Origin: Elusimicrobiota bacterium
Lineage (GTDB): Bacteria; Elusimicrobiota; Elusimicrobia; UBA1565; UBA9628
Reading direction: 5' to 3'
Length of the DNA stretch: 57,039 nt
NCBI GenBank assembly: GCA_023249675.1
Contig: JAHFCE010000021.1
Span: 1 to 57,039, forward strand
Below are positions 31,101-50,898 of this stretch, one piece after another (position 1 is the stretch's first letter; every line of letters starts with the position of its first letter). Under the pieces are notes generated by a model. It saw only the letters and a list, made by a program, of their open reading frames with translations, searched no databases and was not told the origin of the DNA. The position numbers and the translations under genes are program-made.

Positions 31101-33759
31101 GGACAAGCGCAATGAGCCCACCGAAGCTTTCACGGAGCGCCTGACGGAGTTGAACGCGGACTCTGTGACGTCGCAGAAGGCGCTGCGCAAGCTCGAGGCG
31201 TCCTTGGGCGGAGAGGAGACCGCGCCCAAGCTGGCCCGGCTCATGCGGCAGTCTCTCGCGCTTGAAGCCCGCATCGAGGAGGCCGCTTCATCGCCGAATG
31301 CGGCGGCTAAATCCACGCCGAAGCTCGATGCGCTTGTCTCCGAGGCGCGGGCGCTCGAGGCGGACATGGCGCCGGAGCGCCGTGCGATGCATCAGGAGTA
31401 CCGGACCTTGCTCGATCGCGTGCGCACGTTGAGCTCTGACATGGGCGAGGCGGACGCGGCAAGCCGAGCGTCGCTCGAGTCGCAGCGCGCGACCGTCCGC
31501 GGGCGCCTGCGCGCCATCGAGCTCGACCTGAGCGCCGCTCCCGCCGAGGGCGACCTCGGCGGCATGCTGCGCCGCATTCGGATGCTGTCCTCGGAGAAGG
31601 GCTCCCAGGCGCGCAAGGAGGAAACGGCGCTGCGCCGCCAGGCGCGCACCGAGATCATCAAGCGCTTCGACGAGGCGGGCGCTCACATCGTCAAGCTGAC
31701 GCGCGAGGGCGCCCCCGGGTGGGACGCCCGGGTGAACCGCCTGCTTGAGCGGCGCCGGGCCCTCCAAGAGGCCTACGCGGGCGATGAGAGCGCGCTGTAC
31801 GTCGCCTACCGCGAGATGAAGGAGAGCGCGCGGCCGCTCGGCGAGGATCCGCGCCTGACACGGAAGCCTTACGAGATCGCGGGCGACGACGGGAGCATGG
31901 AGCCCGCGATGGTGCTCAAGCGCGCCGATTTCTTCATCGACCGCGCCCGCCAAGTCGAGGCGAAGCCGAAGGGCGGCGGCATCGGCCCGATCGAAGCGGA
32001 GCTGATGATTGCGCGCGAGAAGCTCAAGTCTCTCGCGGACAAGCCCGAGTCGCGCAAGGAGTACAACGCCGCGGTCGACCCCTTGCGCCAGCTTGAGGTC
32101 AGGCTGCTGGACGTCGACGCCTTCCACGCGTCTGACCTCGTGAACAAGAGAATCGCCGGCGATTCGTTTCTGGGCTTCCTGCCGAGCCTGCCCAAGTTCC
32201 TCTTCCAGGCGGCCGCGGGCACGCTTCCCTCCGCCGCCACGGAGAGCATGGGCCTGACGCGCTATCACGCCGCGAAGATGCTCGAAGCTCTCTTCAAGGA
32301 TCCGATGCTGCCGTCCCACCAGCGCGACAATCTGATGTGGTCGTACCTCAATTCTCTCCTGTTTCCGAATGGCCTCGCCGGCCGCGGCTCGTACGTCCGC
32401 TCCGAGATCGTCAACATGGTTCAGGGCTTCCACGACAATCCCGCGGGCGTGCGCATGGACAACCGGGCCGACCGCTTCAACGTGGTGCACAACGGCCAGT
32501 GGTTCGAGTCCATGGACAACGCCCCGCGCCGCTATTGGGAGCTCGAGTACGGCACGGACCTGACCTTACCCTACACCCACAACTCGATGAGCACGATCAA
32601 GGACGTCACCACGAACAAGAGGTCCTACTTCATCTCGCTGTCGGGCACCTCGGGCGTTCAGTTCGAGGCCCATCTGCGCGCCAACGAGATTTCGCTCGTC
32701 GGCGAAGGCTCGGCGATGCCCAAGAACGTCCGGCTTGAGATGATCGGAACGCCCGAGCAGAGGCTGGAGGCCGTCGTGGCGTCTGCGCCGAAGTTGTCGG
32801 CTGCGTCTCGGGACTATGTTGCTCTGCGCGGGAGCGATGACATCCCCGCCGAAGGGAAGATGGAGATCGAGAAGAGCATCAAGGCGTACATGGCCGATCA
32901 CGGAATGAAGCCTGGCGAACCCCAGGTCTTTGAGATCAGCAAAGTCGACAGCCCGGCGGCGCGGCTGTGGCTGCAGGGCATCCGAGCGACGCAGAGGAAC
33001 ACCGTCCTGACCGTGCTCAGCGTCTCGGACACGCGTGCGCTCAAGGCGGTTGAGAAACGGCTGAAGAAATCAGGCATCAAGCAGGATGAGATCGCCAAGG
33101 TCTTCGCCGACACCGAGTACCTGCGCCAGAACGTGCCTGAGGCGAACGTCCTGCGCCAGATGAACATCGAGGGCCTAAACACCGGCAAAGTGAAGGTCTT
33201 GATCCTCGACACGCGCGTCGGCGGCCGCGGCCTCGACCTCAACTTCAAGGGCGAGCGCAATTCGACGCGTCCCGGCGCCTTCCGCGGCTATACGAATTTC
33301 GAGATGCTCGTGCTCGGTCCGGAGGAGATGTCGGGCGTGCACATGGTCCAGGCCATGGGCCGCATCGATACCGGCCGCACGTTGAACCAGGCGCCGCGCC
33401 GGTTCAAGCTGCTCATGGACATCGAGACCGCGAAGGGGGAGGCGGTGTTTCGCGATATGTTCGAGACCAATGAGTTCTTCGTTGAAATGCGCAAGGACCC
33501 GTCATTCCAGGAGTACGCGCGGACCCGCGGCGGCCGGATCGACTGGAGCGCGGTCAACGATTACGTCTTGGCCCGCCGCGACGGCGAGGAGACGCCGGGG
33601 GAGGGCGCGCTCTTGTACCAGCGTTATGAGAAGGCCGTGCGCAAGAATCTCGCCGACCGGAATCTGGAAGTCGAGGAGAACCTGCTGCGCCAGTCCCAAG
33701 TGCTTAATGACAGGCCCACGACGCAGGGCAAGAACCCCGCCCTCGAACGCATCCGCTAG
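25123..33759 (+). CDS. Giant SecA-like ATPase with a Sec signal peptide
   Basis: Protein of 2878 residues. The N-terminus is a classic signal peptide ([28 protein letters not shown]). Residues about 30-1500 are mainly helical, with hydrophobic Gly/Ala-rich parts near 590-930. The ATPase core starts with [22 protein letters not shown] (Walker A near 1529) and a DExD-like LMLQDEMDA (near 1610). About 900 residues of coiled coil and other sequence intervene before [10 protein letters not shown], which resembles SecA motif III. Motifs V-VI follow: [19 protein letters not shown] and [24 protein letters not shown]...RFKLLMDIE, aligning with the AGRGTDI and [25 protein letters not shown]...RFYLS regions of SecA. 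SecA likewise has an insertion between DEVD and the GTA motif, but a far smaller one. ATPase activity, substrate and location are unproven. Confidence 0.7.
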
Positions 33760-34864: not shown

Positions 34865-35887
34865 ATGAACCACCTCGCCGAGGTCCGCGACCGTCTTCTC
34901 GGCGTCGTCGGCCTGCTGCTCGCCTGCACCGTGGCGGGCACGCTCGGCTACCACTTCATCGAGGGCTGGCCCCTGTTCGACGCCCTCTACATGACCGTGG
35001 TGACGCTCGCCACCGTGGGCTACGGGGAGACGCATCCGCTCTCGACTTCCGGGCGGGTCTTCACGATCCTGCTCATCATGGGCGGCATCGGGCTTGTGAC
35101 CTACGGCTTTTCGACTCTCACGTCCGTCTTGATCGACGGCCAGTTGTCGGACGCTCTCCGGAGGAGACGCATGGACAAGGACATCGCCAAACTGACGGGA
35201 CACTTCGTGGTTTGCGGCGCGGGGCACACCGGCGGCGTCGTCTGCGCCGAACTCAAGAAGACCGGCCGGGACTTCGTGGTCGTTGATCGGGACATCGAGG
35301 CCTTGGCTCAGCTTGAGGAACGGCTCGGCTTTTCCCCGCTGCGCGTCGTCGGCGACGGCTCCGAGGACGCGGTCCTGCTGCGCGCGGGGATCGAGCGCGC
35401 GGCCGGCGTGTTCGCCGTGCTCGCCACCGACCAGGACAACGCCTTCGTCGTGCTGTCCGCCAAGGGCCTCAACCCGAAGGCCAAGGTGCTCGCCTGCCAG
35501 AAGTCCCTCGGCGTGCGCGAGAAGCTCCTGCGCAGCGGCGCCGACGGCGTGGTCGACCCCGAGTTCATCGGGGGACTTCGGCTCGCCTCCGAAATGATCC
35601 GGCCGGTCACGGTGGGCTTTCTTGACTCGATGCTTCGCGCCACGGACGCGCACTTCCGCTTCGACGAGATCGCCGTGCCCGCGAATTCGTCGCTGGTCGG
35701 CAAGCCGGTCGGCGCGATCAAGGGCGGGGAAGGCGGAGCGCCGCTTGTCGTGGCCATCGTCGCGGCGGGTTCGGAATCGTACGAGCTCAATCCGCCCGTC
35801 TCACGCCCCATTCGCGCCGGCGACCGCCTCGTGATTCTCGGCGAGACCGAGGCGCTCGGCGGCCTGCGTCAGCGCGTTTTGTCCTAG
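34865..35887 (+). CDS. Potassium channel with RCK (TrkA-N/TrkA-C) domains
   Basis: Protein of 340 residues. Two transmembrane helices (about 11-29 and 66-88) surround a pore loop with the selectivity filter TVGYGE (about 56-61). After a basic linker comes a TrkA-N/RCK Rossmann domain (about 108-230; HFVVCGAGHTGGVVCAEL, VVDRD), then a TrkA-C domain (about 255-335; FDEIAVPANSSLVGKPVGAI ... IRAGDRLVILGE). This is the architecture of MthK-type channels, gated by ligand binding to an RCK ring. The GHTG variant of the usual GxGxxG loop keeps the glycines. The role is presumably K+ homeostasis or osmotic response. Confidence 0.9.
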   Translation: MNHLAEVRDRLLGVVGLLLACTVAGTLGYHFIEGWPLFDALYMTVVTLATVGYGETHPLSTSGRVFTILLIMGGIGLVTYGFSTLTSVLIDGQLSDALRRRRMDKDIAKLTGHFVVCGAGHTGGVVCAELKKTGRDFVVVDRDIEALAQLEERLGFSPLRVVGDGSEDAVLLRAGIERAAGVFAVLATDQDNAFVVLSAKGLNPKAKVLACQKSLGVREKLLRSGADGVVDPEFIGGLRLASEMIRPVTVGFLDSMLRATDAHFRFDEIAVPANSSLVGKPVGAIKGGEGGAPLVVAIVAAGSESYELNPPVSRPIRAGDRLVILGETEALGGLRQRVLS

Positions 35888-35897
35888 CCTTATCATC

Positions 35898-35910
35898 TAA
35901 AGCCTGGCAC
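35898..35910. repeat. 13-bp repeat flanking the RAYT-like gene, left
   Basis: TAAAGCCTGGCAC matches TAAAGCCTGACAC at 36834-36846 with one mismatch. Together they bracket the transposase-like gene. Confidence 0.5.
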
Positions 35911-35942
35911 CGAGGCGCGCGATAAGCTAGAATAGTCTCATC

Positions 35943-36836
35943 ATGGGACGCCCGCAAAGAATCCAGTACGCCGGCGCTTGCTACCTCGTCGTCTTGCAGG
36001 GCAATAATCGCCAAGATTTGTTCCTGTCGAATCAGGACCGCCGCCAGTTCCTCGCGCAGCTGAAGCAGTACAAGGAACGCCACGGCCTCAAGGTGTTCGC
36101 CTACAGCCTTCTTGGCAGCTCGGTCAACCTCCTTATCGAGACCGCCCTGCCCAATTTGTCCGCCGTGATGCAAGGCTTCAACACCCAATACACGAAATAT
36201 TTCAACGCCGCTCACAAGACCGTCGGCCATGTCTTTCAGGGCCGTTATCGGGCGTACATCGTCGACAAAGAAACCCACCTCGAGGAGATGACGCGCTATG
36301 TCCACCTCGCCTGCGCGCGCGACGCCCTCCAGGACAAGCCTTGGCGCTATCAGTGGTCCTCCTGCGCGGCCTACGTCGAGGCCGAGCGCAAGGAGCCGCT
36401 CGTGGATTCCGACGTCGTCCTGCGCAAGTTCGGCAATGGGCGCCTGAAGCAGTCGGTGGGCTACCTTCGTTCCATCGAGGAGCGTCTGAAAACCGTCGGC
36501 GAGCAGATTCTGCCGGTCATCGGCGGGGTGGCCATCGGGGGGGAGGCGTTTCTCGAGAAGCTTGCGGCCCACCGCGAGGCGCCGTCTCTGCCCCGGCCGG
36601 TTCCCGTCGCCGCCGCCCGTCAGATCATCGCCGAGGTGGCCGACCGCCACGGCCTCACCGAGGAGACCGTTCTCGGCCGGGTGCAATGGCGCGAGGTTTC
36701 CGCGGTCCGCCGCGAGGCGATCCATCGGGTTTGGAAGGAAACCCGCATGGGCGTGTCCGAGTTGGCCCGTCTTTTCCGGCGCACCCCCAGCGCGATCAGC
36801 CAGGTGATTCGCTCTTTGGAAACCGAAACGACTTAA
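35943..36836 (+). CDS. REP-associated tyrosine transposase homologue lacking HUH, fused to a DnaA-like domain
   Basis: Protein of 297 residues. Residues 1-140 match Y1/RAYT transposases (RIQYAGACYLVVLQGNNRQDLF, VFAYSLLGSSVNLLIE, LSAVMQGFNTQYTKYFNAAHK, GHVFQGRYRAYIVD, YVHLACARDAL, YQWSSCAAY). Where the family has N-H-V-H-L-L, this protein reads S59-S60-V61-N62-L-L, so both metal-binding His are lost; the candidate catalytic Tyr region (Y83/Y86) remains. The C-terminus (about 210-295: IAEVADRHGLTEETVLGRV...RREAIHRVWKETRMGVSELARLFRRTPSAISQVIRSLE) resembles the DnaA C-terminal DNA-binding domain. I infer a domesticated DNA-binding protein rather than an active transposase. TAGAAT lies nine bases before the start. 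Confidence 0.85.
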   Translation: MGRPQRIQYAGACYLVVLQGNNRQDLFLSNQDRRQFLAQLKQYKERHGLKVFAYSLLGSSVNLLIETALPNLSAVMQGFNTQYTKYFNAAHKTVGHVFQGRYRAYIVDKETHLEEMTRYVHLACARDALQDKPWRYQWSSCAAYVEAERKEPLVDSDVVLRKFGNGRLKQSVGYLRSIEERLKTVGEQILPVIGGVAIGGEAFLEKLAAHREAPSLPRPVPVAAARQIIAEVADRHGLTEETVLGRVQWREVSAVRREAIHRVWKETRMGVSELARLFRRTPSAISQVIRSLETETT

Positions 36837-36846
36837 AGCCTGACAC
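36834..36846. repeat. 13-bp repeat flanking the RAYT-like gene, right
   Basis: TAAAGCCTGACAC begins with the TAA stop codon of the RAYT-like gene and pairs with 35898-35910. Confidence 0.5.
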
Positions 36847-36874
36847 TGCAGGGGTCCTTAGTCCCAAGGCACCC

Positions 36875-36898
36875 TGGGCCATTTAATGGGCGTTTTTT
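36875..36898 (+). terminator. Possible intrinsic terminator of the RAYT-like gene
   Basis: GCCATT-T-AATGGGC forms a stem with one bulge and is followed by GTTTTTT. Confidence 0.4.
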
Positions 36899-36912: not shown

Positions 36913-36941
36913 CTGACAAAGGCGAGAAGTGGGTATATGCT
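36913..36941 (+). promoter_or_regulatory. Promoter CTGACA-N17-TATGCT for the giant gene
   Basis: -35 CTGACA 36913-36918 and -10 TATGCT 36936-36941. It would start transcription near 36948, which argues for GTG 36949 over ATG 36937 as the start codon. Confidence 0.5.
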
Positions 36942-36948
36942 ATGGGAA

Positions 36949-39900
36949 GTGACCCCTCGCTCCCTGAGCCTGCTGGGACGCAAAACGGTTGCGGCCGCGC
37001 TCGCGGCCGCTCTTGCGCTGTCCGGATCCGGCCCGATCTACGCTCAAGAAATCCGCGCGATCGCGGGGCGCGGCGAATTGGGCGGCCGGGCCGGCGAAGC
37101 CGGCGTGCCGGCCTTGCCGAACGTCCTGTCTCCGTTGTCGCCGCCGGCGTTCAATGGCGCGCTGACGCCGACCTCCTCCGCGCTGCCGGGGCCCTCGATT
37201 TCGCCGTCGGCCGCGGTGCTGGGAGGCCACGCGCGCGCCTTGCCGGCTTTGGCGGCCCCGTCGTTGCTTCCGGCTGTCGCCGTTGCGGAGCCTGTGCCCG
37301 CGCCGGGAGCGGCGAAGACGCCGGTCAAGTCCGGCGAGGCCGCGGTCCTTCCCGCCGAGACCGCGGACGGCGACGCGAAGGATTTCGCCGACGCCGAGTT
37401 CCACCGCCTCAATGGCGAGGTCGACGCCGCGGTCTCGGGCGAGGCCGCGCCGGTCGCCGCGGCGCCCGCACCGGTTCCGGCCGAGTCATCCTCAGATCCG
37501 TCGCGCGACGGATCGGTGGATATCCTGTCGGTCCCGCCGGCGCCCGAGATCGACAAGCCCGAGCCGCCGGCAGCCGAACCCGACTTTTTCTCTCCCCGAG
37601 AGCCGATCAAGTACGTTTACGAAGATTTTCTCGGTTTCCGCGCCGTCAGGGGCGTGCGCCACGACCCGACGCTCAAGCCGCTTCTCAGGATCGAGAGCAT
37701 CGATCAGGTCATTGACCATATCTCCCGCCAGTTCGACATTCCCCGAGCGCGCATTCTTGAGCTGGGCGCGAAGTACCGCCTCAACGAGTACAGCCCGCTC
37801 GCGTCGTGGGTCAGCGTCTACGATCGCCTCCAAGCCTCCAACCGCGACCAGTTCAAGCGCCTCGACGCGAAGAAGTACCACACGTGGATAGACGAGGAGC
37901 CTGTCCGTTACCCCGCCGGCTGGGACGGCGTCAAGGCGCGCTTCGGCGCGCTGCGCGACGGCCTGCGTCCCGCGTCGATCGCGCGCCGCGTGGGCGAGCA
38001 CCTCGCGCGCGAGAAGGCGACTTTCCGAATGCTCGCGAACAAGACGTACAAACCGGGCTGGCGCGGGACGATGCAGAGGGCTTCCCGGCTCCACGTCCAT
38101 TTCATCGGCGCGGCGTTTCGCTTCCCGTACCACCTGTTCGACATGTTCATCTTCGGCTACTTCCGTCAGGCGATCTCTTTCGAGCATCGGCATTCGGGCG
38201 AGGACTTCTTCGCGCTGTCGGACCGCGAGAAGTTCGCCGAACAGTGGCTTGAGGCCGCGATGCACCAGGACTGGGTCAAGGGCGCCGGCGCGTTCTCCGG
38301 GATTCGCGCCAATCGCTGGTACCGCGGGGCCAACCACTGGTTCATCGTTCCCTTCGCAGCACCCCTGACGACCTTCGTCGCGCGGCGCCTGACGCTCGCG
38401 GTCATGAGCATGATCGCGATGGGGTTTCTCGGCGCGCTCTCCCCCTTCCTGCCCCTGTCGTTTGCGATCACCCCGATCCCTGTGGTCGGCCCCGCGATCG
38501 TCGCCGTGCTCAACGGCCTGCCGGTGGCCGTCGCCGTCGTGCCCTGGCTGGGCCCCGTCCTGGCGCCCGTCGTCGCGGCCGCGACCACGGCTTTGGCTCG
38601 GGACCTGATCTTGGGCCCCCTGATGAACACCTTGATCCTCTCGACCTTGCTGACCTACCCGGCCGCGGCCCGGGAGGCCGTGGCACGCCTGCGCGACGAG
38701 GCGCCGCTCGCGCACATGCCGATGGGGGGGATGGTCATGGCCGTTTTGGGCGCGGCCGTGTCGTGGCAATTCTGGAGCTCGAATCTGAAGTCCTTCCTCG
38801 GCCTGGCCACGGTTGGCGCCGAGATCCAGGCCATCATGACCTACGCGGGCTCGATCGACGCGGGGATCGATCCCGGCTTTAAAGCCGTCTTTGGCCGCGA
38901 GATACACCTCTTCCACGGGGTCGCGGGCGCGGTCGAACTCCCCGCGGGCGAGAGCGTGATTCGGTTCGGCGGCGCCATCACGTGGGGCAACGTCCTTCTT
39001 TACAAGATGCAGACGCTCGCCGGCTTTAACATCTCGAATGCGGTCATGAACTCCACTTTGCTGGTCAAGGGCATGATCTTCGGCGAGAGCGCCACGGACC
39101 TGCCGATGGCCAAGAGCTCGGCGCAGGAGCTGATCGCCGCCTCGAGCGCGCGGACCAAGGACCAGGGCTTGCCTTTCGACCCGAACCTATGGATGAAGCC
39201 GTTGTCGGAGGCCAAGGCGCGCATCGTGGAGTTGGCGGGCAAGGCGGGGCATCTCGACGCCGAGATCGCGGCGGTCAAGGAGCATCGCACGAAGCTTTGG
39301 GCCGAGCTCGGCGACAAGAGAGCCCAGATCGAACGCCTTCAGGCGCTGAGCCGCCCGGTCACCGACGCGGAGCGCGCGGAGCAGGCGCGCCTGATCGCCG
39401 CGCTCGCGGCCAAGTCCGACGAGGTCGGCGTGCGCGAGAAGCTGGCCGAGCGCCGCGACCTTCTGCAGCCGCCGAGCGACGCGGACGCCTTGGCCCGCCT
39501 CAAGGCCCTGCAGAAGGAGTTTACGGGCAAGATGCCGCCGCCTCCGCCCGACCGCAACGGCTACTGGGAGGACCTCGCGGCGCAAGACGCCTCGATGAAG
39601 GCCTTATCGCAGCGGCTGGAGACTTATGCCGAGGGCAAGGTCCCTTCGCCGCCGGGGGGTGAAGTCGCTCCCGCGTTGACCGCCGGCGCGCGCGACCAGA
39701 TCGCCAGGCTTGTCGCCGACATCGAGGCCCTGCGCGCCGAGGCCAAGGGCGAGCTCGCCGAGCGCGACGCGGCGTCCGCTTTGCTCTCCGCCTCGAGCCG
39801 TCTGCGCAACGCCGCCTTGCGCGCGCGCAACCCGTCCGTGATGATTCCCTTCCACACCGACAAGGCCAAGCTTTCAAGCGTGATGGCGCTGGCGCTGTCC

Positions 39901-42900
39901 CTCAACGAGATCAATGCCGCCCAGACCGCGATTGCGCAGATGACGGACCTGGTCGAGAGCAAGCGCGCGAAGATATCGGCGTCAAGGGCGGAAAACCAGC
40001 GCAGCCAGAACTCCGCCGATCAGAATGCCGGCCTGAATGCGACCTGGAAGGGCGAAGTCGATCAAGATATCGCCGATGACGACTCGACGCTCAAGGACAT
40101 CGCCGAATCCAAGACCAAGGTGAGCCTAGTCGTCGAGCGCCTGGGCGCTTTTAAGACCGACCTGCGCGCCTTCATCGACTCGGTCAACGCCGAGGACCGC
40201 GGGGAAAGTGCTGACGCCGCCACGGAGTACCAGCGCCGCATCGAACTTCTGCCTCAGATCAAGGCCTGGCGCGAGAACGGGGGCAACCCGAACGATCCTG
40301 ACGCGTTCTCGCTGAAGAAGTTTACCGATGACCTGGCCGAGATCGACGACAACATCACGAAGGCCGCGGACGGCCTCGTTCGCCTGCCGACCTCGCCGGA
40401 TGAGCTGGCAGGCACGGTCATGGCCAAGGTTCCGGGTCCGGAAGTGTCTCTGTCTAATCCCAGCCAGGAGCGAATGCGGCAGGTCCTGGCTGAGCGCAAG
40501 GTTTACTGGCAGGGCAAGCGCGCTGACTTCGGCAAGTCCCTCGACACGGTCAACCGCATGCTCGACGCGGGCAACGGCCGCACGGTGCTCGACGAATTCG
40601 GCGACCCGCACCCCGAATCCCTCCCGTTGTGGCGAGAGCGGTCGCAATCCGAGATGGCGGCGGCGCAGGCCGCGGCGCGCTCGGATCTCAGCCAACTCGA
40701 CGCGCTCGCGGCCAATATCAACCGGGCCTCGGGCTCAAGCCTGCCGATGCTCGCGGGCCTCGGGCTCAAGGAGCTTCAGGACGCGATCAAGACCTACGGC
40801 GACAACCTCAAAGCCGTGACGTTCTCCGAAACCGAGAGCCTCCAGTCGCACACGGCGATGATGGACCTGGTGTCCTCGGCGCGGCTCGTGCCCCAGGCCG
40901 CGCGGGAGATCATCCGCTGGTCGAAGGCTGACGCGACGGTGACCGCGATCGACGACGCGGCCCTCAACATACTGCCCAAGGCAAAGACCGGTTTGGAAGG
41001 CATCGCGCACATGCTCGACGTCGTTCTCAGCGACGTGATCCTCGACGAGGCCTGGAACCAAAATCCGCCCCCGCGCGGCGAGCCGGGGAAGGCGCAACGG
41101 CAGGGGCTGATTGACCGCAAGACCGCCCTTCTGCGCGACACGATCCTGCCCGCGCTGCGGGGCGCGCGTGCGATGTTGGTGGACACCTTGATCCCGTACC
41201 AGCGCAAGTCGATTGAGGACATGAACGCCGCGAGCAGCGACTACTTCAAGCTGTATGACTCGAAGAAGACCTTGATCGAAGAGGCCGACAAGCTCTACAA
41301 CCACACCATGCCGTGGACGTTCGCGACGTTCGGCGCGGCCGATGGCGACCAGGCGGAGGCGAGGCAGAAGATCGGCGAGTGGCGCCACAGGCTTCAGAAG
41401 CGTCTGGACGGTTATGACGACGCGAAGGGCCATCACAAGGGGGTTCACGAGTATCAGGTCGAAGCGGCCAACCGCAAGGATCCGAACTTCTCCGGCACCG
41501 AGGACCTCTACGGCGAGACCCAGCCCTTCAGCCTGCCCAAGAAGATCGAGCAGTACACCGCCGAGCGGAAGCTGCGCGCGGAGCAGGTCAACGCGCAGGA
41601 CGCGCAGATCAACGAGATTATCGGCAAGATCGAGACGATCTCGAAGGGCAAGTACGCGATGTCGAGTTTTCGCCTGCCGGTCGGCGTGACGCCGGACGCC
41701 GCGGGCGTTTCGCGCGCGCAGGCGGCCGTCGACGGCCGGGCCGTCCAGAATCTCGTGGACCGGCTCAAGGCCGTGGCCGACGAAAGTCAGGCGGGGGTGG
41801 CGGCCATCAGCATCGGCGGCGACGGCACGGTTCCATCGGGGCCGCAGCCCGCGATCGCGATTTCAGAGAATCAGCAGATCTCGCTCTTGGCGCTCGACGC
41901 GGCCAAGCGCCTCGTGCCGACCAGCCTCAATCAGCCCGAGACCGCGCCGGCGGCGTTTGCGCTCGCGCGGCTGCTGTACTCGGACGCGGTGATCGCGGCC
42001 GCCCAAGACGGCCTCCACGTCCAGCTTCCGGAGGCCGAACGTTTCCTCGGCCGCGTTTCGACGGTGCTGGGCGAAGCGATCGCCGACATCTCCAACGATG
42101 AGGACTATGCGGCCAAAAACGGCGCGAGTGAGACCGCGGAGCAGGTTTTTGCGCGCAAGATCCGCGTGTACTCGTCGCTTGACGGAGTGCTTCTTGAGGC
42201 CGCGGACTTCTTCCGCCTCAAGCAAGGTTGGAGCCGCGACAAGTTCGCCACGCTCGACCGCGTGCGCGACTACTACGATGCGCTCCACGACATCTACAGC
42301 GGAGGCCAGACGGCCAACGACAACGAGGTCGAAGCGCTCGATAAGATGCAGGACGCTCTGCGCCTGACGATGAGCGACCTCGAGCAAAAGCGCGTCAAGG
42401 TCTCCTCGTGGCTCAACCAGCTGAATCCGAGGCAGAAAAGCGCGCTCAACAGCGCGAGCGAGGACGTCTCGCAGATCATGGACAAGACGCGCGACGCCCT
42501 TGAGACGAACATCGACTGGCACGTTCTTGAGGATCGCCTTGGCCGTTCGCGCGAGATCCTCCAGTCGCAGTTGACCCAGATCGAAGACAAGCAAAACGAG
42601 CTCGCCGCGATCTTGGCCAAGCCCGAGGCGCAGGGCCGGCTGCCGGCCGATCTCGCGCGCCGCGTCGAGGCCTTGCGCCTGGGCCGCTCCGGCTGGGTCA
42701 ACGAGGGATCTTCGGCGGCTCCGGCGTCCTTGGTCATTCGCAAGGCCGAGTACGGAGCCTTCGTCGACTCCTTGCTCGGCCTGGTCGCCTCGGGCGCGCC
42801 GCGCTCGGCGGCGGAGATGTCCGCGCTCAAGGCCGACTTGCTCAAGAACCCCCAAAGCTTGGCCTCCTTGGTCCCGAACTCCAAGGTGCTCGAACTCGGC

Positions 42901-45900
42901 GACGCGGCCGACGGCTTCTATCTCGTCTACCAGTCGGGGTTCGCGGTCCCGCACGGCCTCAACACGAACTCGTGGGCGACATTGGGCAACATCGGCAAGG
43001 TGTTCGGAAGCAATGTCAGCGTGTCCGGCTACAAGATCTCAAGCCCGCCCAGCAAAGACGGTGAAAACGCGCCGTATGGCGACAAGGGCGTGGACATACA
43101 AGTGGAGAGCCTGCAGGGCAAGAACAGCGTGAATTATCTCAACGTCGACCTGCACCGCTTCGCCTTCGACATTCCGGCCGACAACAGCGTCAAGGCCGGC
43201 GCGGGTGAAAGCCGCCTGATGATCTTCAACGATCACGCGTACATGTCGGACGGCAAGGACCTCTACGTCGGCCTCGCGGGCTTCGCCGACGGCGCGCTCC
43301 AGGACACAAAAGACAAGCCGTACTACTACGGCGGCAACGCCAAGACCTCGGTCAAGATGACGAAGGTGATGACCCTCGACGCCGAGCAGCGCGCGCTGTG
43401 GGCCACGGATCCGCGCAAGTTCCTCCAGGACGTTCCCCTCAACTTCACGGGTTACGACCCGGACCTCCGCAATTTCACCATCACGGCCAGTGGCGAGAAG
43501 AAGGATTATTTCCGCACCCAGGTCGGCCCGAAGTTCGACCTCAACCGCCTGATGAACCCCGACGGCGGAGGGGAGGCGTTCACGCTCGACCTGTACTGGG
43601 CGAAGACCGCGGGCACCGACGACGTCAATCAACAAGCCGCTGGAGTCAGTCTCTTAAAGGGATTCTCGCTGAAGAATTCGGAAGGAAAGACCTGGATGCG
43701 CATCGACAATCGCGCGACCGTCGAGGCCGGCCCGAAGCAGACCGAGACCTTCGACCGCCTCGCGGTCTCCTTTCCCGACTCGGGCCTGGTCGTCAGCGGC
43801 GAAGGCAGGATCATCGGCGGTGCGCGGACCTACTTCGGGCAGATCGCGAAGAAGATGGGCGATCATTCGGACATCTCGCTCAGTTACGGCTCGCAGTACA
43901 TGGGCATGAACGACCGGCTCTCGATCGGGATGAACAACTCGTTCACGCTCGCCGAGCTCTGGCAGAAGGTCAGCGACGACACGGCCTTAAACCTGAGCGG
44001 CGGCGAGACGCTCAAGGGCTACAATCGCGAGTTCGGCGACTTCTTCTCGGGCGACGAGGCCAAGTCCTCGCGCACGGCGATGGAACTGCTGAAGGTCTAT
44101 GAGCGGGACATCGGGCTCAAGCTCGTCTCGCAGGACATCGGCGGCATGACGAGCGAAATCCAGCAGTGGCGCAAGGCCGGCGCGTTCATGGAGAACTCGC
44201 GCGTGCGAGGCATGGTCGGCTTCACCTCGCGCCCGGTGTCCAACGACCTGACCGAGCGCGCGGTCGGCGGCGGCTTGACGGTCGGAAGCTACAGCGAGAT
44301 GTCGATGAGCAAGACCCAGAAGCAGTTCATCGAGACCCACGTCCAGGCGCTGTCGCGCGAAGGCCTGCGCCTGCAGGATCGCATGCTGTCCCTGACGATC
44401 GACTGGCAGGCCGCGATCGTGGAGCTCGCCCAGGCGCAGTGGGCGCTTAAGATGGCCGACTTCTCGGTCCAAAACGCGCCGTCCGAGGCCTCGCGCCGCG
44501 AGGCGGCCGTGAGCCGGGTCGAGGCCGAGTCGCGCCTGCACCAAGCGGCGCTGCGCTACAACGGGTTGACCGGCCGCGACCCGCAGGCGCCGCCGCCTTT
44601 TGCGGACCTCAATGCCGAGGACCTGCGCCAGATGCTCGGCAGCATCAGCCGCCTGCTCGCCTCGCCCGATCGCCTTGGCGCGATTCTGGGCGGCCTTGAT
44701 GGGGAGGCGCTAAAGAAGTCCATCGGGGAGAATCCCTTCAACCTCGTCGACTGGATCCCGTGGGTGGATCGCCTGACGATCGGTTTCGGCGTGCAGTTCC
44801 AGGACATGATGGCCAACCAAGTGCTCACCGTCGGCGGCTCCCTGCGGGTGCCGATTTATGACCCGGCCTCGAAGAGAACCGATAAGGCGTACGCGCTCGA
44901 GGCGCAGGCGGTGAAGGAGGAGATGAAGCAGGCTTATGCCGAGCGCACGTCGGCGAGCCGGGCCGCCGCCGAGCAGGCCGTCCTCTGGGAGGCGAGCGCG
45001 CGCGCCATTGAGCCGAACGCCCCGGCCGCCGCGCGGGCCCTCTCCGACGCGATCCGCGCCTCCCGCAACGGCCTGATCGGTCCGGAGAAGCTGCGTGCGG
45101 CCTTCGCGGCCTGGAACTGGTACCTGTCGACGTCTCTCGATGCGCTCTCTCGCGCGGCCCTGCTCCGGGCCTCGGCCAGCGTTCAGGTGCCGTTTGAACG
45201 CCCCGCGCGCAACGACGGTTCGCCGCTGCGCCTTTCTTCCATCGATGACGCCTTCGCCGCGGCATCGGCGAACTCGCACAACCTCGGCGAGATCGCCAAG
45301 CATCAAGAGGCCGCCGAGGAGATGGCCCGCGCGGCCGACCGCCGCATTCAAAAGGCGTGGGTCGATGTCGGCGTGGGTGTCGGCCTGACGGCCCAAGGCG
45401 TGGGCTGGCTGCCCTCGCTCGGCGCCACGGGCATCTCGGTGATCCCCACGCTCGGCTTCGAGCTCAAGCCCGAGGAAATGCGCGAGCTGCAAGTGACGGA
45501 TCACGAACGGCAGACCGACTATTACGGGGCCCTCAAGAACCGCGTCGAGTCCGGGCTTGCCGTGCAGTTCTACCAGAACATGGCGGCATTGCGTTCGGCG
45601 CAGTCTCGTCTTGCCATCTACGACGATCGTCTGCTTCCGGAACTGGGATCCGCGGCGGCCGCGGGCGGAGCCGACGCGGTGCGCCGCTATGACGAGGCCA
45701 AGCTCGCCCGCGAGGCGACGAGCCTTGAGTTCGCGAAGGCGCGCGAGACGATCAACTTTCTGCTCGGCCGGCCGGCCGAGGCGACGATCACGGTGGAGAT
45801 CGACGAGCGCCAGGCGCTTGTCGCCCTGTCGCGCCTGCTCGCCGCGAAGGACCCCGTCGCCACCCAGCGCCGCATCTTGGACGCGCGCGTGTCCGTCGCG

Positions 45901-48900
45901 AAAGCGGTCGAGGAGATGATCGATAAGAATATGAAGGTCGAGACGCTTCAGATGGACCTGAACATCGTCGTGCGCGCGTTCGGCCGTCTGCTGGCGGGCC
46001 AGTCGAACGGCCCGATTTACAATAATCCCGAAATGGCCGCCGCCGCCCGCATTCAGACCTTGACCGAGGAGCGCGAGCGCGATGCTTACGACGCTCGCCG
46101 CGAGACCGAAGCCGCCCAACTCGGCCTCCGACTCAACGCCGTGCGCGACGCGTGGGATCGAGTCCGGGCCACGGATCCGGAGTCTCTGATCGAGAAGAGC
46201 CGCCTCGCGTCGGAGATGTTCACGCTTCAGGCGGGGCTTCTGGCTCTCGGCGCCAACCCCGACGCCGCGATCGCGGTGAATCACGGGACGCTGCCGAAAA
46301 GCTGGGCGGAGCTCAAGGGCCGCCTTGCCGCCTCCGAGCAATCTCGGATGACGGCGGCGTCCGAGGACAGGCTCGACTGGATCGCTCCCGAAAATCTCAA
46401 GAACCGCTCCGGGGTCTTCGCCCGCTACGATTTCGCGCATCAGACCATGGGCCACGAGCCGATCGGCCGGAGCTTCATCGAGAGCTGGATCGAGCTGCGC
46501 CTCAACGACCCGGGAACGCCTCCCGAGGCCCTGTTGGCGCTTGCGAAGCTGCGCACCGACAAGGCCGACCGCCTCCATCGCGACGCGCTCGCCGGCGCCG
46601 CGGCGCGCGCCGACATCGCGGCCGCCCGGTTCGAGGGCGACGCGCGCCTGCTGCGCTACCTCGAGGGCGAGATCGCCGGCCGCAACGCCGCCCAGTCTCC
46701 GAAGCCGCTCGACGACGCGAAGCTGTCCTTGAAGAAGCGCCTGGAAGTTGAGCGGCAAGAACTTGTCGCGCGCCTGGGACTGTCGCCGCAGACCACGCTC
46801 GACGACTTGCTGCGCCTCGTCGGCAACGACGCGGAGTCGGCCAGGAACTTGCCCGAGCTCTCCTCTCGCCTGATCGAGGACATTCGCGCCCGCCAGATCG
46901 ACTCGATTCGGCGCACCCTCTTCGACGGGGGCGCGCCCGCGGGCTGGGGCGGCGAACAAGATCTCATGGGCCGGATCAAGGCGGATGCGATCGCCGAGCG
47001 CATGCGCTACAACGGCTTCACGCCGGTGGCGACCTTCGGCTATTTCCGGGGCACTCCGATCGCCGGCGGCTTCATCGAGGCCCCGGATCCACGGGAGGTC
47101 GAGGTCGGCCTCGAGAAGGCCATGGGCGAGGTCTTGCGTAAGCAGATGCAGTCCTCAGGTCAGTTTCAGGCCGTGACCTTGCGCATCCATTCGCTGCTGG
47201 TCGGCGTCGCGGACGGCACGAAGAGCATTGAGGCCCGCCGCAAGCTCATCGAGGCCGCGGAGAACGACCTGCGCGCCCGGGCCGAAACGTCCGGACCGGG
47301 GTCCGTCGAATACGCCGCCGCGCAGGACGCCCTCCTTTCGGCCTGGGACGGCTTTGCCCGGGTGATGACGAGCACGAAGGCCGATTTCATTGCTTTGGTC
47401 ACGGAGCTCGAGGCGTTCGGCGAGGGCTCGGCCGGCGCCTTCACCTTGCGTCCCGTCTCGGCGTCCGACCGTTCGGAGGCGCCCCTCTCCAGCGACCCGA
47501 AGGGTCAGCTCCTCGACTACTGGGCCGGCCGCTATGGCGACCCGTCCTTTGAGGCGGGTCTCGACGCGCTGTTTGCGCGCATGGGAACGGCGGTGCCTCC
47601 CGAGGTGCGCGCGCGCATCGCTTCGAGCGCGGCCTCCTACCGGACTGCCGTGCGCGACGCGGACGCGATGAACACCAACGATTACACGCCGGCCGAAAAG
47701 TTCGACCGGCTGATCAAGATCGACGTCGAGGGCAAGCGCCTCAACTTGCGCGCCGAGCTGGAGGCGGCCCTGCGCGGCGTGGGCCTGCTCGACCGCGACT
47801 CGAACCCGGTCGCGGCCGAATTCCTGGCCTTCATGCGCGCCGACCTCGCGGCCGCCTCGAAGGCTTTCGCGCTCGACCGCGGCGAGAAGGTCCGCATCGA
47901 CCGGGCGCTTAGCGAGACCTATTGGCGCGCGCACCAGCCGACGCAGGCCGAGGCCGCGACGTTCGCCCGCCTCGACGGGCTCAACGCCGAGCTCGAGGAC
48001 GCTCGCGACCGCCTGATGGCAAGTTATCTCGCCGATTCGGGCGGCAGTGCCGTGTCCTTCGTCCTCAAGGACCGTGAGCTCGACACATATTTAAAGGCCC
48101 AGAGCGCTTTCGACGCCGAGCTGACGCGCGCGCTTGGAGACAAGCCTTCGCCGGCGGTCGTCCGCGCGCTCGACGGCCTCTACGGTCTGCGCGAGGCGCT
48201 GGACCGCGCCGTCGCGCGCGCCGAGCATGGCCGCGGCATGGGAGCGCTTGACGCCTTGATCATGCTCGAGCAGGCCCGCCTGCGCGCCGCGCGTTGGACG
48301 CACGCGACCCCGGCTCGCATCGATCCGATCGCTGCGGCGCTGTCGCGGCTGAAGGAGACGCGCGAACGCTGGGCCTCGGGCAAGGTGGGTCCAAGCCTTG
48401 AGCCGCTGTACGCGGTGACGAGCCTTGACGGCGAGGGCCGGCGCACGTGGGCCGTCAAGGAGTGGCTGAGCGCGGGGCAGTTCGACGCCATGGTCAAAGA
48501 CGGCGTGGAGCGTCCCGGCGCGCCGGGTGCGATCATCGCGCGCGGCGGCGGCTATTTCATCGATTATCCCGCGCAAGGCAGCGGGAAATATGAGGTGGTC
48601 GGCGGCGCCGACGCCGCCGACGCCGCGCATGCGTTGGCCGACAGCAAATTCAACGACAACCGCGTGCGGGCCAGCCTGCAGGCGAAGATGGCGAGCTCGG
48701 ATTTTGTGGCGCCGGGCGAGCCCGGCCAGGAAGCCATGGGCTGGCAGTTCGCGCAGGTCTTCGGCTCCGGCGGCCTGCACGCGCAGGGCCGAGTCCTTTT
48801 CTTCGAGGCGTCCGTCGGCAGCAAGCCCGCGCGCGCACTCCACCCGCTCACAGCGCTTTCACGGCCGCCCGAGGAAGTGGTCATGAAGCTCTACCTGGGC

Positions 48901-50898
48901 GACAAGGCGTTGGGCCGTGACCGCTTCCTGACCCTGCACAGTCTCGAGGACTCCGAGGAAAGCGCCGCATTTAAGACCTTGACGGTCTCGCCGAAGGGCG
49001 CTTCCGAGCTCATCAAGCATGCGCGCGACCGAGAAGCCTATTCGCTTCGCCGCGGCTGGATCGAGGTCAAGCTGAACAGCTTCGGCTTCGCGCGAGACGG
49101 GAACGGCCAGGTGTCCCAGCTTTACCGCACGAAGGACGACTTCGAGGCGCAGTGGAAAGCCTACGATCATGCTGAGCGCGATCTCGGTATCGCGCGCCGC
49201 GATCTCAAGGCCGCGCAGGCCGAGGTGGCCGCGCGCAAGGAGGAGACCGACGATTCCGCGAAGCTCAAGGCTGCGCGCGCGCGCGCGATCAACGCGAGCC
49301 AAACGGTCCGCGATGCCGAGCTCACCCTTGCGCGTTCCCGGACCGAGACCTTGCACCGCAGCGCCGACCTGACGCTCGGCCTCGGCTCGGACTATGCTCT
49401 CGTCCACGTCGCCGCTCCGGGCGCGCGCGGGCCTGCCAGGACCAAGGACCTCGATGAGCCCGTGGCCGGCGGCGGTTCTCAGGTCCACACTATCTCCGGG
49501 TCCCTGTTGGCCGCCGTCGTCGATCAGGAGGGCAAGCTTGTTCACGCTTACACCAGCGAGCGGGAGGTGGACAAGGGCTTCAAGGACTGGACCTTGCGTT
49601 TTGACCAAGCGGGCGGAGATGTCGTGGGCGGCGACGCCTACGGAGCCTTGACCAAGGTCCGTTTCAGCCATTACGAGGAAACGGTTGGCGTCCAGGCGCT
49701 GCCGGTGCTTTTGGGCGCGACCTACCTGACCTCGCGCCTGGAGGGCGCGCAGTCGGCCCTGTGGACGGCGAAACGTTGGTCCTACCTCCCGTTCAACTGG
49801 GGCAATATCGCACTCGAGATCCCGCGCGGCGTCGCGGGCCTCCCAGCCGAGTTTGCCGGCCGCGATCCGCTTTGGCACCACTACCTCGGCCGCGCCTCTC
49901 TATACAAGACCGAGGGCGGCATGACCGAGCATAACGGTTTCTTCCGGTCCGTCCTCGGCGCCATAGATGTCCTGAATCTCCTGCCGGACCCGGCCGAGCC
50001 TTTCTACGATCCGAGCCAGTTCCCCGATAGGGTGCATACCGGCTCGGCGCTGCGCCCCGGCGAGGGTCTGTGGAGCAAGGATTTGAGCGCGAAGATCGGC
50101 GGCCGGGAGAAGGACATCCACCTCGGCCGTCAGTCCCTGCAGCGCGAGGTGATCCATGCGGCCGAGGATCTTGACGCCGCGCGCGTGCGCACGCTCTCTC
50201 GTTTCCGCGGCGGCGTGGAGCAGCTGACCCTGGAGACCCGCCGCGGCCGCGCTGGACGGTATCAGGAGTCCACCCGCACCGCCGAACTGGGTCCCGAGGC
50301 GATTCGCCGCCGCCTCGCCGATGGGACGATCGCCGCGGACCCGCTCTCCGGCGGCTTCGCCGAGGCGGACGTCGTGACTGCCGAGACACCGGGCCGCCTC
50401 TCCGTCGACTCCGTCGAACGCCGCGTGCGGGTGCGTCCGGGCGCTGACGCCTATGCGCGCCAGGCCGCGGCGCTTGACGGCTACGATGGGCGCGCGGTCG
50501 AGCGGGACCGGGCGATCGAGCCGGAGCGCGCCGCACTCGAGGCGGTCCGGGCGCTCGCGGAGAAGAAGGTCGCGGGAACCGTGGCCGAGCGCGACCAGGC
50601 GCGCAGTGAGGAAGGGCGGCTGCGTGTGGAGTGGCATCAGCTGGCTCAGCGCATCGGCGAACAGGATGAGCTCGAGAAGCGCGTCGCGTTCCTGAAGGCC
50701 GACATCCAGGCCCTGGAGAGCCGCATCGCCTTCTGGGAGCGCTACCGAGGCCTGCTCGAAGGGGCCCGCCGCCCGCTCCCGCCGTTCGCCCCGAACCCGA
50801 TGTTCTGGGTCTGGATGCTGTTCCTGTCCCTTCTGGGCGCGGCCGCTTTGGCCTTGCGGCGTTGGCGCCGTCGCCCGCCGCCGCCGAATCCTGCCTGA
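36949..50898 (+). CDS. Giant envelope protein with TolC-like region and C-terminal membrane anchor
   Basis: About 4649 residues from GTG 36949; four more if ATG 36937 is used. A signal peptide ends near SGSGPIYAQ and is followed by a Pro/Ala-rich segment to about 210. Residues about 465-620 hold several membrane helices (TLAVMSMIAMGFLGALSPFLPL, VVGPAIVAVLNGLPVAVAVV). About 740-1950 is largely coiled coil. About 1980-2460 is beta-rich (LGLAVSFPDSGLVVSGEG-like strands, DISLSYGSQYMGMNDRLSIGMNNSF). About 2490-2970 looks like TolC-family outer-membrane factor repeats (ILTVGGSLRVPIYD-type strand, paired long helices, LNSVESGLAVQFYQNMAAL..., INFLLGRP). More helical domains follow, and the protein ends in PNPMFWVWMLFLSLLGAAALALRRWRRR, a membrane segment with an Arg-rich tail. 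The frame is uninterrupted. It may span both membranes; function unknown. Confidence 0.75.
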   Translation: MTPRSLSLLGRKTVAAALAAALALSGSGPIYAQEIRAIAGRGELGGRAGEAGVPALPNVLSPLSPPAFNGALTPTSSALPGPSISPSAAVLGGHARALPALAAPSLLPAVAVAEPVPAPGAAKTPVKSGEAAVLPAETADGDAKDFADAEFHRLNGEVDAAVSGEAAPVAAAPAPVPAESSSDPSRDGSVDILSVPPAPEIDKPEPPAAEPDFFSPREPIKYVYEDFLGFRAVRGVRHDPTLKPLLRIESIDQVIDHISRQFDIPRARILELGAKYRLNEYSPLASWVSVYDRLQASNRDQFKRLDAKKYHTWIDEEPVRYPAGWDGVKARFGALRDGLRPASIARRVGEHLAREKATFRMLANKTYKPGWRGTMQRASRLHVHFIGAAFRFPYHLFDMFIFGYFRQAISFEHRHSGEDFFALSDREKFAEQWLEAAMHQDWVKGAGAFSGIRANRWYRGANHWFIVPFAAPLTTFVARRLTLAVMSMIAMGFLGALSPFLPLSFAITPIPVVGPAIVAVLNGLPVAVAVVPWLGPVLAPVVAAATTALARDLILGPLMNTLILSTLLTYPAAAREAVARLRDEAPLAHMPMGGMVMAVLGAAVSWQFWSSNLKSFLGLATVGAEIQAIMTYAGSIDAGIDPGFKAVFGREIHLFHGVAGAVELPAGESVIRFGGAITWGNVLLYKMQTLAGFNISNAVMNSTLLVKGMIFGESATDLPMAKSSAQELIAASSARTKDQGLPFDPNLWMKPLSEAKARIVELAGKAGHLDAEIAAVKEHRTKLWAELGDKRAQIERLQALSRPVTDAERAEQARLIAALAAKSDEVGVREKLAERRDLLQPPSDADALARLKALQKEFTGKMPPPPPDRNGYWEDLAAQDASMKALSQRLETYAEGKVPSPPGGEVAPALTAGARDQIARLVADIEALRAEAKGELAERDAASALLSASSRLRNAALRARNPSVMIPFHTDKAKLSSVMALALSLNEINAAQTAIAQMTDLVESKRAKISASRAENQRSQNSADQNAGLNATWKGEVDQDIADDDSTLKDIAESKTKVSLVVERLGAFKTDLRAFIDSVNAEDRGESADAATEYQRRIELLPQIKAWRENGGNPNDPDAFSLKKFTDDLAEIDDNITKAADGLVRLPTSPDELAGTVMAKVPGPEVSLSNPSQERMRQVLAERKVYWQGKRADFGKSLDTVNRMLDAGNGRTVLDEFGDPHPESLPLWRERSQSEMAAAQAAARSDLSQLDALAANINRASGSSLPMLAGLGLKELQDAIKTYGDNLKAVTFSETESLQSHTAMMDLVSSARLVPQAAREIIRWSKADATVTAIDDAALNILPKAKTGLEGIAHMLDVVLSDVILDEAWNQNPPPRGEPGKAQRQGLIDRKTALLRDTILPALRGARAMLVDTLIPYQRKSIEDMNAASSDYFKLYDSKKTLIEEADKLYNHTMPWTFATFGAADGDQAEARQKIGEWRHRLQKRLDGYDDAKGHHKGVHEYQVEAANRKDPNFSGTEDLYGETQPFSLPKKIEQYTAERKLRAEQVNAQDAQINEIIGKIETISKGKYAMSSFRLPVGVTPDAAGVSRAQAAVDGRAVQNLVDRLKAVADESQAGVAAISIGGDGTVPSGPQPAIAISENQQISLLALDAAKRLVPTSLNQPETAPAAFALARLLYSDAVIAAAQDGLHVQLPEAERFLGRVSTVLGEAIADISNDEDYAAKNGASETAEQVFARKIRVYSSLDGVLLEAADFFRLKQGWSRDKFATLDRVRDYYDALHDIYSGGQTANDNEVEALDKMQDALRLTMSDLEQKRVKVSSWLNQLNPRQKSALNSASEDVSQIMDKTRDALETNIDWHVLEDRLGRSREILQSQLTQIEDKQNELAAILAKPEAQGRLPADLARRVEALRLGRSGWVNEGSSAAPASLVIRKAEYGAFVDSLLGLVASGAPRSAAEMSALKADLLKNPQSLASLVPNSKVLELGDAADGFYLVYQSGFAVPHGLNTNSWATLGNIGKVFGSNVSVSGYKISSPPSKDGENAPYGDKGVDIQVESLQGKNSVNYLNVDLHRFAFDIPADNSVKAGAGESRLMIFNDHAYMSDGKDLYVGLAGFADGALQDTKDKPYYYGGNAKTSVKMTKVMTLDAEQRALWATDPRKFLQDVPLNFTGYDPDLRNFTITASGEKKDYFRTQVGPKFDLNRLMNPDGGGEAFTLDLYWAKTAGTDDVNQQAAGVSLLKGFSLKNSEGKTWMRIDNRATVEAGPKQTETFDRLAVSFPDSGLVVSGEGRIIGGARTYFGQIAKKMGDHSDISLSYGSQYMGMNDRLSIGMNNSFTLAELWQKVSDDTALNLSGGETLKGYNREFGDFFSGDEAKSSRTAMELLKVYERDIGLKLVSQDIGGMTSEIQQWRKAGAFMENSRVRGMVGFTSRPVSNDLTERAVGGGLTVGSYSEMSMSKTQKQFIETHVQALSREGLRLQDRMLSLTIDWQAAIVELAQAQWALKMADFSVQNAPSEASRREAAVSRVEAESRLHQAALRYNGLTGRDPQAPPPFADLNAEDLRQMLGSISRLLASPDRLGAILGGLDGEALKKSIGENPFNLVDWIPWVDRLTIGFGVQFQDMMANQVLTVGGSLRVPIYDPASKRTDKAYALEAQAVKEEMKQAYAERTSASRAAAEQAVLWEASARAIEPNAPAAARALSDAIRASRNGLIGPEKLRAAFAAWNWYLSTSLDALSRAALLRASASVQVPFERPARNDGSPLRLSSIDDAFAAASANSHNLGEIAKHQEAAEEMARAADRRIQKAWVDVGVGVGLTAQGVGWLPSLGATGISVIPTLGFELKPEEMRELQVTDHERQTDYYGALKNRVESGLAVQFYQNMAALRSAQSRLAIYDDRLLPELGSAAAAGGADAVRRYDEAKLAREATSLEFAKARETINFLLGRPAEATITVEIDERQALVALSRLLAAKDPVATQRRILDARVSVAKAVEEMIDKNMKVETLQMDLNIVVRAFGRLLAGQSNGPIYNNPEMAAAARIQTLTEERERDAYDARRETEAAQLGLRLNAVRDAWDRVRATDPESLIEKSRLASEMFTLQAGLLALGANPDAAIAVNHGTLPKSWAELKGRLAASEQSRMTAASEDRLDWIAPENLKNRSGVFARYDFAHQTMGHEPIGRSFIESWIELRLNDPGTPPEALLALAKLRTDKADRLHRDALAGAAARADIAAARFEGDARLLRYLEGEIAGRNAAQSPKPLDDAKLSLKKRLEVERQELVARLGLSPQTTLDDLLRLVGNDAESARNLPELSSRLIEDIRARQIDSIRRTLFDGGAPAGWGGEQDLMGRIKADAIAERMRYNGFTPVATFGYFRGTPIAGGFIEAPDPREVEVGLEKAMGEVLRKQMQSSGQFQAVTLRIHSLLVGVADGTKSIEARRKLIEAAENDLRARAETSGPGSVEYAAAQDALLSAWDGFARVMTSTKADFIALVTELEAFGEGSAGAFTLRPVSASDRSEAPLSSDPKGQLLDYWAGRYGDPSFEAGLDALFARMGTAVPPEVRARIASSAASYRTAVRDADAMNTNDYTPAEKFDRLIKIDVEGKRLNLRAELEAALRGVGLLDRDSNPVAAEFLAFMRADLAAASKAFALDRGEKVRIDRALSETYWRAHQPTQAEAATFARLDGLNAELEDARDRLMASYLADSGGSAVSFVLKDRELDTYLKAQSAFDAELTRALGDKPSPAVVRALDGLYGLREALDRAVARAEHGRGMGALDALIMLEQARLRAARWTHATPARIDPIAAALSRLKETRERWASGKVGPSLEPLYAVTSLDGEGRRTWAVKEWLSAGQFDAMVKDGVERPGAPGAIIARGGGYFIDYPAQGSGKYEVVGGADAADAAHALADSKFNDNRVRASLQAKMASSDFVAPGEPGQEAMGWQFAQVFGSGGLHAQGRVLFFEASVGSKPARALHPLTALSRPPEEVVMKLYLGDKALGRDRFLTLHSLEDSEESAAFKTLTVSPKGASELIKHARDREAYSLRRGWIEVKLNSFGFARDGNGQVSQLYRTKDDFEAQWKAYDHAERDLGIARRDLKAAQAEVAARKEETDDSAKLKAARARAINASQTVRDAELTLARSRTETLHRSADLTLGLGSDYALVHVAAPGARGPARTKDLDEPVAGGGSQVHTISGSLLAAVVDQEGKLVHAYTSEREVDKGFKDWTLRFDQAGGDVVGGDAYGALTKVRFSHYEETVGVQALPVLLGATYLTSRLEGAQSALWTAKRWSYLPFNWGNIALEIPRGVAGLPAEFAGRDPLWHHYLGRASLYKTEGGMTEHNGFFRSVLGAIDVLNLLPDPAEPFYDPSQFPDRVHTGSALRPGEGLWSKDLSAKIGGREKDIHLGRQSLQREVIHAAEDLDAARVRTLSRFRGGVEQLTLETRRGRAGRYQESTRTAELGPEAIRRRLADGTIAADPLSGGFAEADVVTAETPGRLSVDSVERRVRVRPGADAYARQAAALDGYDGRAVERDRAIEPERAALEAVRALAEKKVAGTVAERDQARSEEGRLRVEWHQLAQRIGEQDELEKRVAFLKADIQALESRIAFWERYRGLLEGARRPLPPFAPNPMFWVWMLFLSLLGAAALALRRWRRRPPPPNPA
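37496..37522. repeat. 27-bp repeat with 18-bp palindrome, copy 2
   Basis: Same palindrome as at 5-22, here inside the giant gene and encoding DPSRDGSVDI in its Pro/Ala-rich leader. One mismatch in 27 positions. Confidence 0.6.

Follow-up and report, generated by a model that had tools for sequence, protein, structure and literature searches.

Does a transposase gene that has lost its active site represent a mobile element in decay, or a gene that the host has kept? The question is raised by a single-copy gene on the forward strand of the window (35943..36836, ATG start), the window being the whole 57,039-nucleotide stretch of Elusimicrobiota DNA that was analysed. The gene encodes a 297 aa descendant of the RAYT/TIRYT transposases that appears to be nuclease-dead. 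Domestication of RAYTs is an old proposal, and their host function is debated, since the domesticated RAYTs described so far, to our knowledge, keep their nuclease.

A Y1 fold without its metal site

The protein is recognizably a RAYT. The NCBIfam model REP_Tyr_transpos matches residues 5–139 (E 2.3e-13, with a score of 50 bits, short of the cut-off of 80), and a Y1 fold is present, the nearest predicted-fold match being the Escherichia coli RAYT structure 4er8 (Foldseek E 2.1e-5; VIA Z 13.2, rmsd 3.4 over 155 residues). The structure model was built with 10 aligned sequences and has a mean pLDDT of 60, the core and the helix-turn-helix lying mostly at 65–87 and residues 128–220 being unreliable; as the model is shallow, it was used for the core and the C-terminal domain alone. 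A PDB sequence search with the single protein returned only a mitoribosomal protein, matched weakly and regarded as noise.

Both metal-binding histidines of the HUH motif are missing. Direct reading of the DNA and alignment with 39 paralogues bear out what the earlier note had read, namely S-S-V-N for N-H-V-H: residues S59-S60-V61-N62 (AGC TCG GTC AAC; 36117..36128, +) stand in place of N-H-x-H. In TnpAREP the third metal ligand is an Asn four residues after the catalytic tyrosine (PMC6006769); alignment places Ala123 at this Tyr+4 position and keeps Tyr119 at that of the nucleophile (36297..36311, +). The neighbouring conserved residues are intact, as had also been claimed (GNNRQD, FN..YTKYFN..H...GHVFQGRY and W..SS).

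The same loss runs through an entire clade. A search of 58 relatives recovered full-length orthologues of 48–86% identity, at one place per genome and well apart from a large group of weaker paralogues. In a profile search that covered 235 genomes of the class, 32 proved to carry the gene, with exactly one copy apiece; all 32 belong to the window's order, and none was found outside it. The genomes that bear an orthologue span three families (f1, f2 and f3), and the open frame is full-length in more than 30 of them. HxH was found in none of 31 aligned orthologues. Counted by column over 30 of these, the first histidine and the Tyr+4 asparagine are retained in 0/30, the second histidine in 11/30 and the tyrosine in 19/30 (lost in 11); the thirty-first, L083, likewise lacks HxH and the asparagine. 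Among 39 paralogues, drawn from these genomes and from the class, each active-site position is retained in 37–38. The dead clade is monophyletic with 100/100 support, the window's genus forming one sub-clade within it.

Pairwise dN/dS over all codons is 0.06–0.29, and the Y1 core and the helix-turn-helix have the lowest values, so the selection analysis that the earlier note had proposed points to purifying selection. The two histidine columns are the fourth and eighth most variable of 150 core columns in the dead clade. As judged from these sequence comparisons, selection has let go of the active site yet holds the remainder of the protein. The suggestion that S-x-N might itself be conserved within a clade did not survive: the site drifts, S-V-N is one of many states, and a constraint specific to S-x-N is ruled out.

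Two readings of the gene can be weighed on this evidence. That it is a transposase copy decaying without function finds some encouragement in the loss of the gene from some genomes of the genus, one of which (G007) holds a remnant, but is scarcely credible given full-length frames across three families, the low dN/dS and a partly conserved locus; the selection evidence already contradicts it. The earlier note had held that close relatives with an intact HUH motif would mark the window copy as merely decaying, and none occurs among the 31 orthologues. A single degraded copy or a sequencing error is ruled out, the loss being common to all 31 and dN/dS below 0.3. It is also very improbable that the protein is still an enzyme, with other residues binding metal or with a different chemistry. 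Retention of the tyrosine in the window copy and in most orthologues speaks for it, but both histidines and the asparagine are gone from the window protein, about a third of the orthologues have lost the tyrosine as well, and the active-site columns drift freely, with no alternative set of conserved ligands at those places.

The clade shows the features expected of a domesticated transposase (single copy, vertical inheritance, a partly conserved locus and purifying selection). With 31 orthologues free of HxH and loci that are largely syntenic, domestication combined with loss of the nuclease site, as the earlier note proposed, appears well supported. Two sister RAYTs from another family, L089 (G057) and L091 (G048), also have degenerate active sites, reading DHYY with Phe/Gly and NQYH with Tyr/Gln, respectively; possibly these represent a second, independent loss.

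The C-terminal domain and its kinship with TIRYTs

Residues 223–297 (36609..36833, +) form a helix-turn-helix like that of DnaA domain IV. The resemblance, which the earlier note had seen, is borne out by profile comparison (2hcb/1l8q, E 1.6e-4) and by the predicted fold (3pvp, Z 10.6, rmsd 1.9 Å over 75 residues), the Pfam match being sub-threshold (E 0.0026). The recognition helix RTPSAISQ (residues 280–287) is nearly invariant within the clade as RTPSA-SQ. The likeness to DnaA lies in this predicted fold and in weak sequence similarity. Unlike DnaA, the window protein has no Pfam match to an AAA+ ATPase domain, its N-terminal half being the Y1 fold; RTPSAISQ replaces the DnaA signature, and the target proposed below is no DnaA box.

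Contrary to what the earlier note had supposed, the domain was not added to the dead protein. Helix-turn-helix C-termini matching Bac_DnaA_C, HTH_23 or HTH_28 mark TnpAREP subclass 2.1 (Quentin et al. 2018, PMC6006769), which these authors treat as identical to the TIRYTs (PMC6006769; De Nocera et al. 2013, PMC3733652). Among the Elusimicrobiota, Bac_DnaA_C is matched at E<0.01 by 8 of 40 proteins of the paralogue set (which includes L083, afterwards reassigned to the dead clade), others matching HTH_23, HTH_38 or HTH_28, and a profile of the dead-clade C-terminus picks up 7/39 paralogues at E <0.01. Since intact relatives carry the helix-turn-helix, the idea of an added domain is rejected.

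With its Y1 core, helix-turn-helix C-terminus and flanking repeats, the window protein resembles the TIRYTs of subclass 2.1. An intact HUH motif and tyrosine are stated for all TIRYTs (De Nocera et al. 2013, PMC3733652), whereas the dead clade lacks HUH and the asparagine and is single-copy at a partly conserved locus. The survey of Quentin et al. removed sequences without HuH/Y as probably non-functional (PMC6006769), a step at which a dead clade, even a conserved one, would have been discarded.

The domesticated RAYT groups of Bertels, Gallie and Rainey (2017) are reportedly single-copy and vertically inherited, with their catalytic residues kept; the dead clade shares the first two properties and differs in having lost the catalytic residues.

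Locus, flanking motif and dispersed copies

Upstream of the gene lies a potassium-channel/TrkA-N protein (34865..35887, +), the neighbour at many orthologous loci, and downstream a giant protein of 4653 aa (36937..50898, +) with a signal-peptide-like start (by eye), relatives of which stand beside many orthologues. A second giant protein (25123–33759, 2878 aa) has a signal-peptide-like start and a Walker-A-like stretch, APTSLGKT; neither giant has a Pfam match at 1e-3, and in other families relatives of the giants are found alongside the dead RAYT. Within 1.5 kb of 21/30 orthologues lies a TrkA-type channel protein or a relative of either giant, a count that is weaker than strict synteny because the giant-protein relatives may be a multigene family. 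Elsewhere in the window, pattern matches at about 14923–15497 and 17492–18066 share an identical context 2569 bp apart, which suggests a tandem duplication; an Rfam search of the window gave no match.

Some genomes of the genus lack the gene. In G007 the TrkA gene is followed by a remnant of the gene, its final 14 codons (LIRSLEAGSAALN-stop), after which come a perfect copy of the downstream motif described below and the giant gene. The remaining codons mark a secondary deletion and rule out an empty insertion site; the gene is thus dispensable in G007, and the motif, kept after the deletion, may have another reader. No orthologue was found in G008, where the contig stops just past TrkA, and neither orthologue nor TrkA neighbour in G005 and G011, so the missing orthologues are partly a matter of assembly.

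The search for binding repeats that the earlier note had proposed led to a candidate which that note had not noticed. The gene is bracketed by AAAGCCTGRCAC, the sole intergenic exact copies in a genome of 2.6 Mb. The upstream copy, AAAGCCTGGCAC (35899..35910, +), ends 32 bp before the ATG and is proposed to be an operator that derives from the left transposon end; the downstream copy, AAAGCCTGACAC (36835..36846, +), has the same orientation, overlaps the stop codon and lies about 90 bp ahead of the ATG of the next gene. With its final pyrimidine, exact AAAGCCTGRCACY occurs in the window's genome at these two flanking places only; when that base is dropped, a third exact copy appears, within a coding region.

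The core of the motif, GCCTGRCAC, lies in exact form within 100 bp upstream of 23/31 orthologues and within 100 bp downstream of 15/31, against about 0 in shuffled flanks and 0/248 coding windows. In most orthologues the upstream motif is some 20–35 bp from the start codon, its orientation and distance varying between them; where the motif flanks both sides, the copies are direct in the window's genus and inverted in several f2 and f3 orthologues. A candidate -10 element, TAGAAT (35928..35933, +), was found by inspection downstream of the upstream motif, and similar AT-rich hexamers occupy this position in orthologues. That the motif is a plain -35 element is ruled out, its spacing to the putative -10 varying from roughly 12 to 19 bp by eye. 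Directly past the downstream motif lies a GC-rich self-complementary element (36850–36881; AGGGGTCCTTAGTCCCAAGG...CCTGGGCC), which is found also at L003–L008 and L055, and related GGTCC/GGGCC elements recur near other motif copies.

Intact paralogues, among them L001 of the window's own genome, bear GCCTGRCAC as terminal inverted repeats, which indicates that the flanking motif descends from transposon ends. GCCTGACACC, the complement of GGTGTCAGGC, is near the published consensus for TIRYT terminal inverted repeats, GGGGWSAS (PMC6006769; PMC3733652), and several paralogues carry CCTGACCCC, the complement of which fits that consensus exactly. Unlike the inverted repeats of TIRYTs, the motif of the dead clade is often direct.

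Copies of the motif also recur at conserved intergenic positions in genomes of the genus. One class of site is present in 13 genus genomes, the window's included (G000:C21:24193, L182; one mismatch), where it adjoins a ClpS-like gene cluster and a divergent gene. Some 40 bp from the motif lie two DnaA-box-like sequences that overlap each other, and the region holds few other boxes of this type. The site, with 0–2 mismatches, is present in each of the ten genus genomes that bear an orthologue and could be examined; an eleventh, G009, gave no ClpS match and stands outside the ten. The site is retained in G005, G008 and G011, in which no orthologue was detected, and this is evidence against a strict dependence of the site on the gene. 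A copy upstream of a short-chain dehydrogenase occurs within a sub-clade only, and G005 has it in inverted form. REPIN-like inverted pairs, GTGTCAGGCTTT ... AAAGCCTGACAC about 50–65 bp apart, were seen at L075 (G013), L076 (G018) and L077 (G025), with at least eight such pairs in G013.

A putative regulator acting at former transposon ends

Our data are best accommodated by a model, which we consider probable, in which a nuclease-dead, domesticated TIRYT acts as an autoregulating DNA-binding regulator with operators derived from its old transposon ends. A TIR-associated RAYT (TnpAREP subclass 2.1/TIRYT, a Y1 nuclease with a C-terminal helix-turn-helix) would have been fixed in the lineage ancestral to one order of Elusimicrobiota, would have lost its metal site and would then have been passed on vertically as a host gene. 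The dead protein would bind GCCTGRCAC in duplex form, using its DnaA-domain-IV-like helix-turn-helix and perhaps also the intact Y1 fold. Sitting on the upstream motif, over the promoter, it would repress its own transcription; the downstream copy and the few conserved intergenic copies would bring neighbours under its control, including the genes for giant exported-looking proteins. Binding and regulation alike are inferred here from sequence. Several observations sit uneasily with this model: in G007 a perfect downstream motif has outlasted the gene, the upstream motif varies in orientation and distance, some dispersed sites are limited to sub-clades, the motif stands in inverted pairs in some genomes, and the DnaA-box-linked site persists in the three genomes with no detected orthologue. 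Of the new regulatory or chromosomal role that the earlier note envisaged, the regulatory part is plausible, the flanking motif lending it support.

The main rival is that the dead protein restrains transposition, competing with active RAYTs in its own genome for the shared terminal-repeat motif and so limiting their spread, its binding to its own flanks being a by-product. The use of GCCTGRCAC as inverted terminal repeats by intact paralogues is what this reading would expect, as is the presence of at least one intact copy in most tested genomes, the window's own (L001) among them. We nevertheless regard it as unlikely: it is weakened by G012, G029 and G041, where the gene persists without any other detectable Y1 transposase (in G041 the dead copy is alone), and conserved single sites near ordinary genes are unlike elements in need of restraint. 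Less likely again is a structural or replication role, in which the Y1 fold would hold a single-stranded hairpin and the DnaA-like domain would bring it to DnaA boxes or the fork. The predicted domain-IV fold, the motif copy conserved across the genus some 40 bp from a DnaA-box-like pair, and the fork targeting that Quentin et al. suggested for subclass 2.1 (PMC6006769) all lean this way. Against it, the flanking motif is no DnaA box, and in the closed genome (G010) the conserved site lies at 2.19 Mb, far from dnaA at 3.60 Mb, and coarse GC-skew sampling gave no clear origin signal at the site; a role at the origin of replication was set aside on these grounds.

The autoregulator model has a parallel in TldR, nuclease-dead, TnpB-derived proteins described as RNA-guided transcription factors (PMC13418256). 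In both cases the nuclease of a protein from the IS200/IS605 world has been lost, and the protein has taken on, or is proposed to have taken on, a regulatory role; TldR derives from TnpB and is guided by RNA, whereas the dead RAYT belongs to the TnpA side and would read DNA with a protein helix-turn-helix. More tentatively, the clade may be a case of an HUH transposase that, having lost its nuclease, serves a bacterial order as a dedicated transcription factor, with its former terminal repeats as operators, copies of which link it to a small regulon, giant exported-looking proteins among its members.

Taken at the level of sequence, the dead clade is a domesticated RAYT minus its nuclease. A clade without catalysis but with the fold, the DNA-binding domain and the end motif sets DNA recognition apart from cutting, and it allows the DnaA-like tail of TIRYTs to be tested as a reader of terminal repeats, a question raised by Quentin et al. 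(PMC6006769). If the proposed regulation is true, the clade would add a case in which the ends of a selfish element were turned into regulatory circuitry of the host, and this in a phylum that has seen hardly any genetics, and the dead RAYT would represent the TnpA-side counterpart to the nuclease-dead TnpB regulators.
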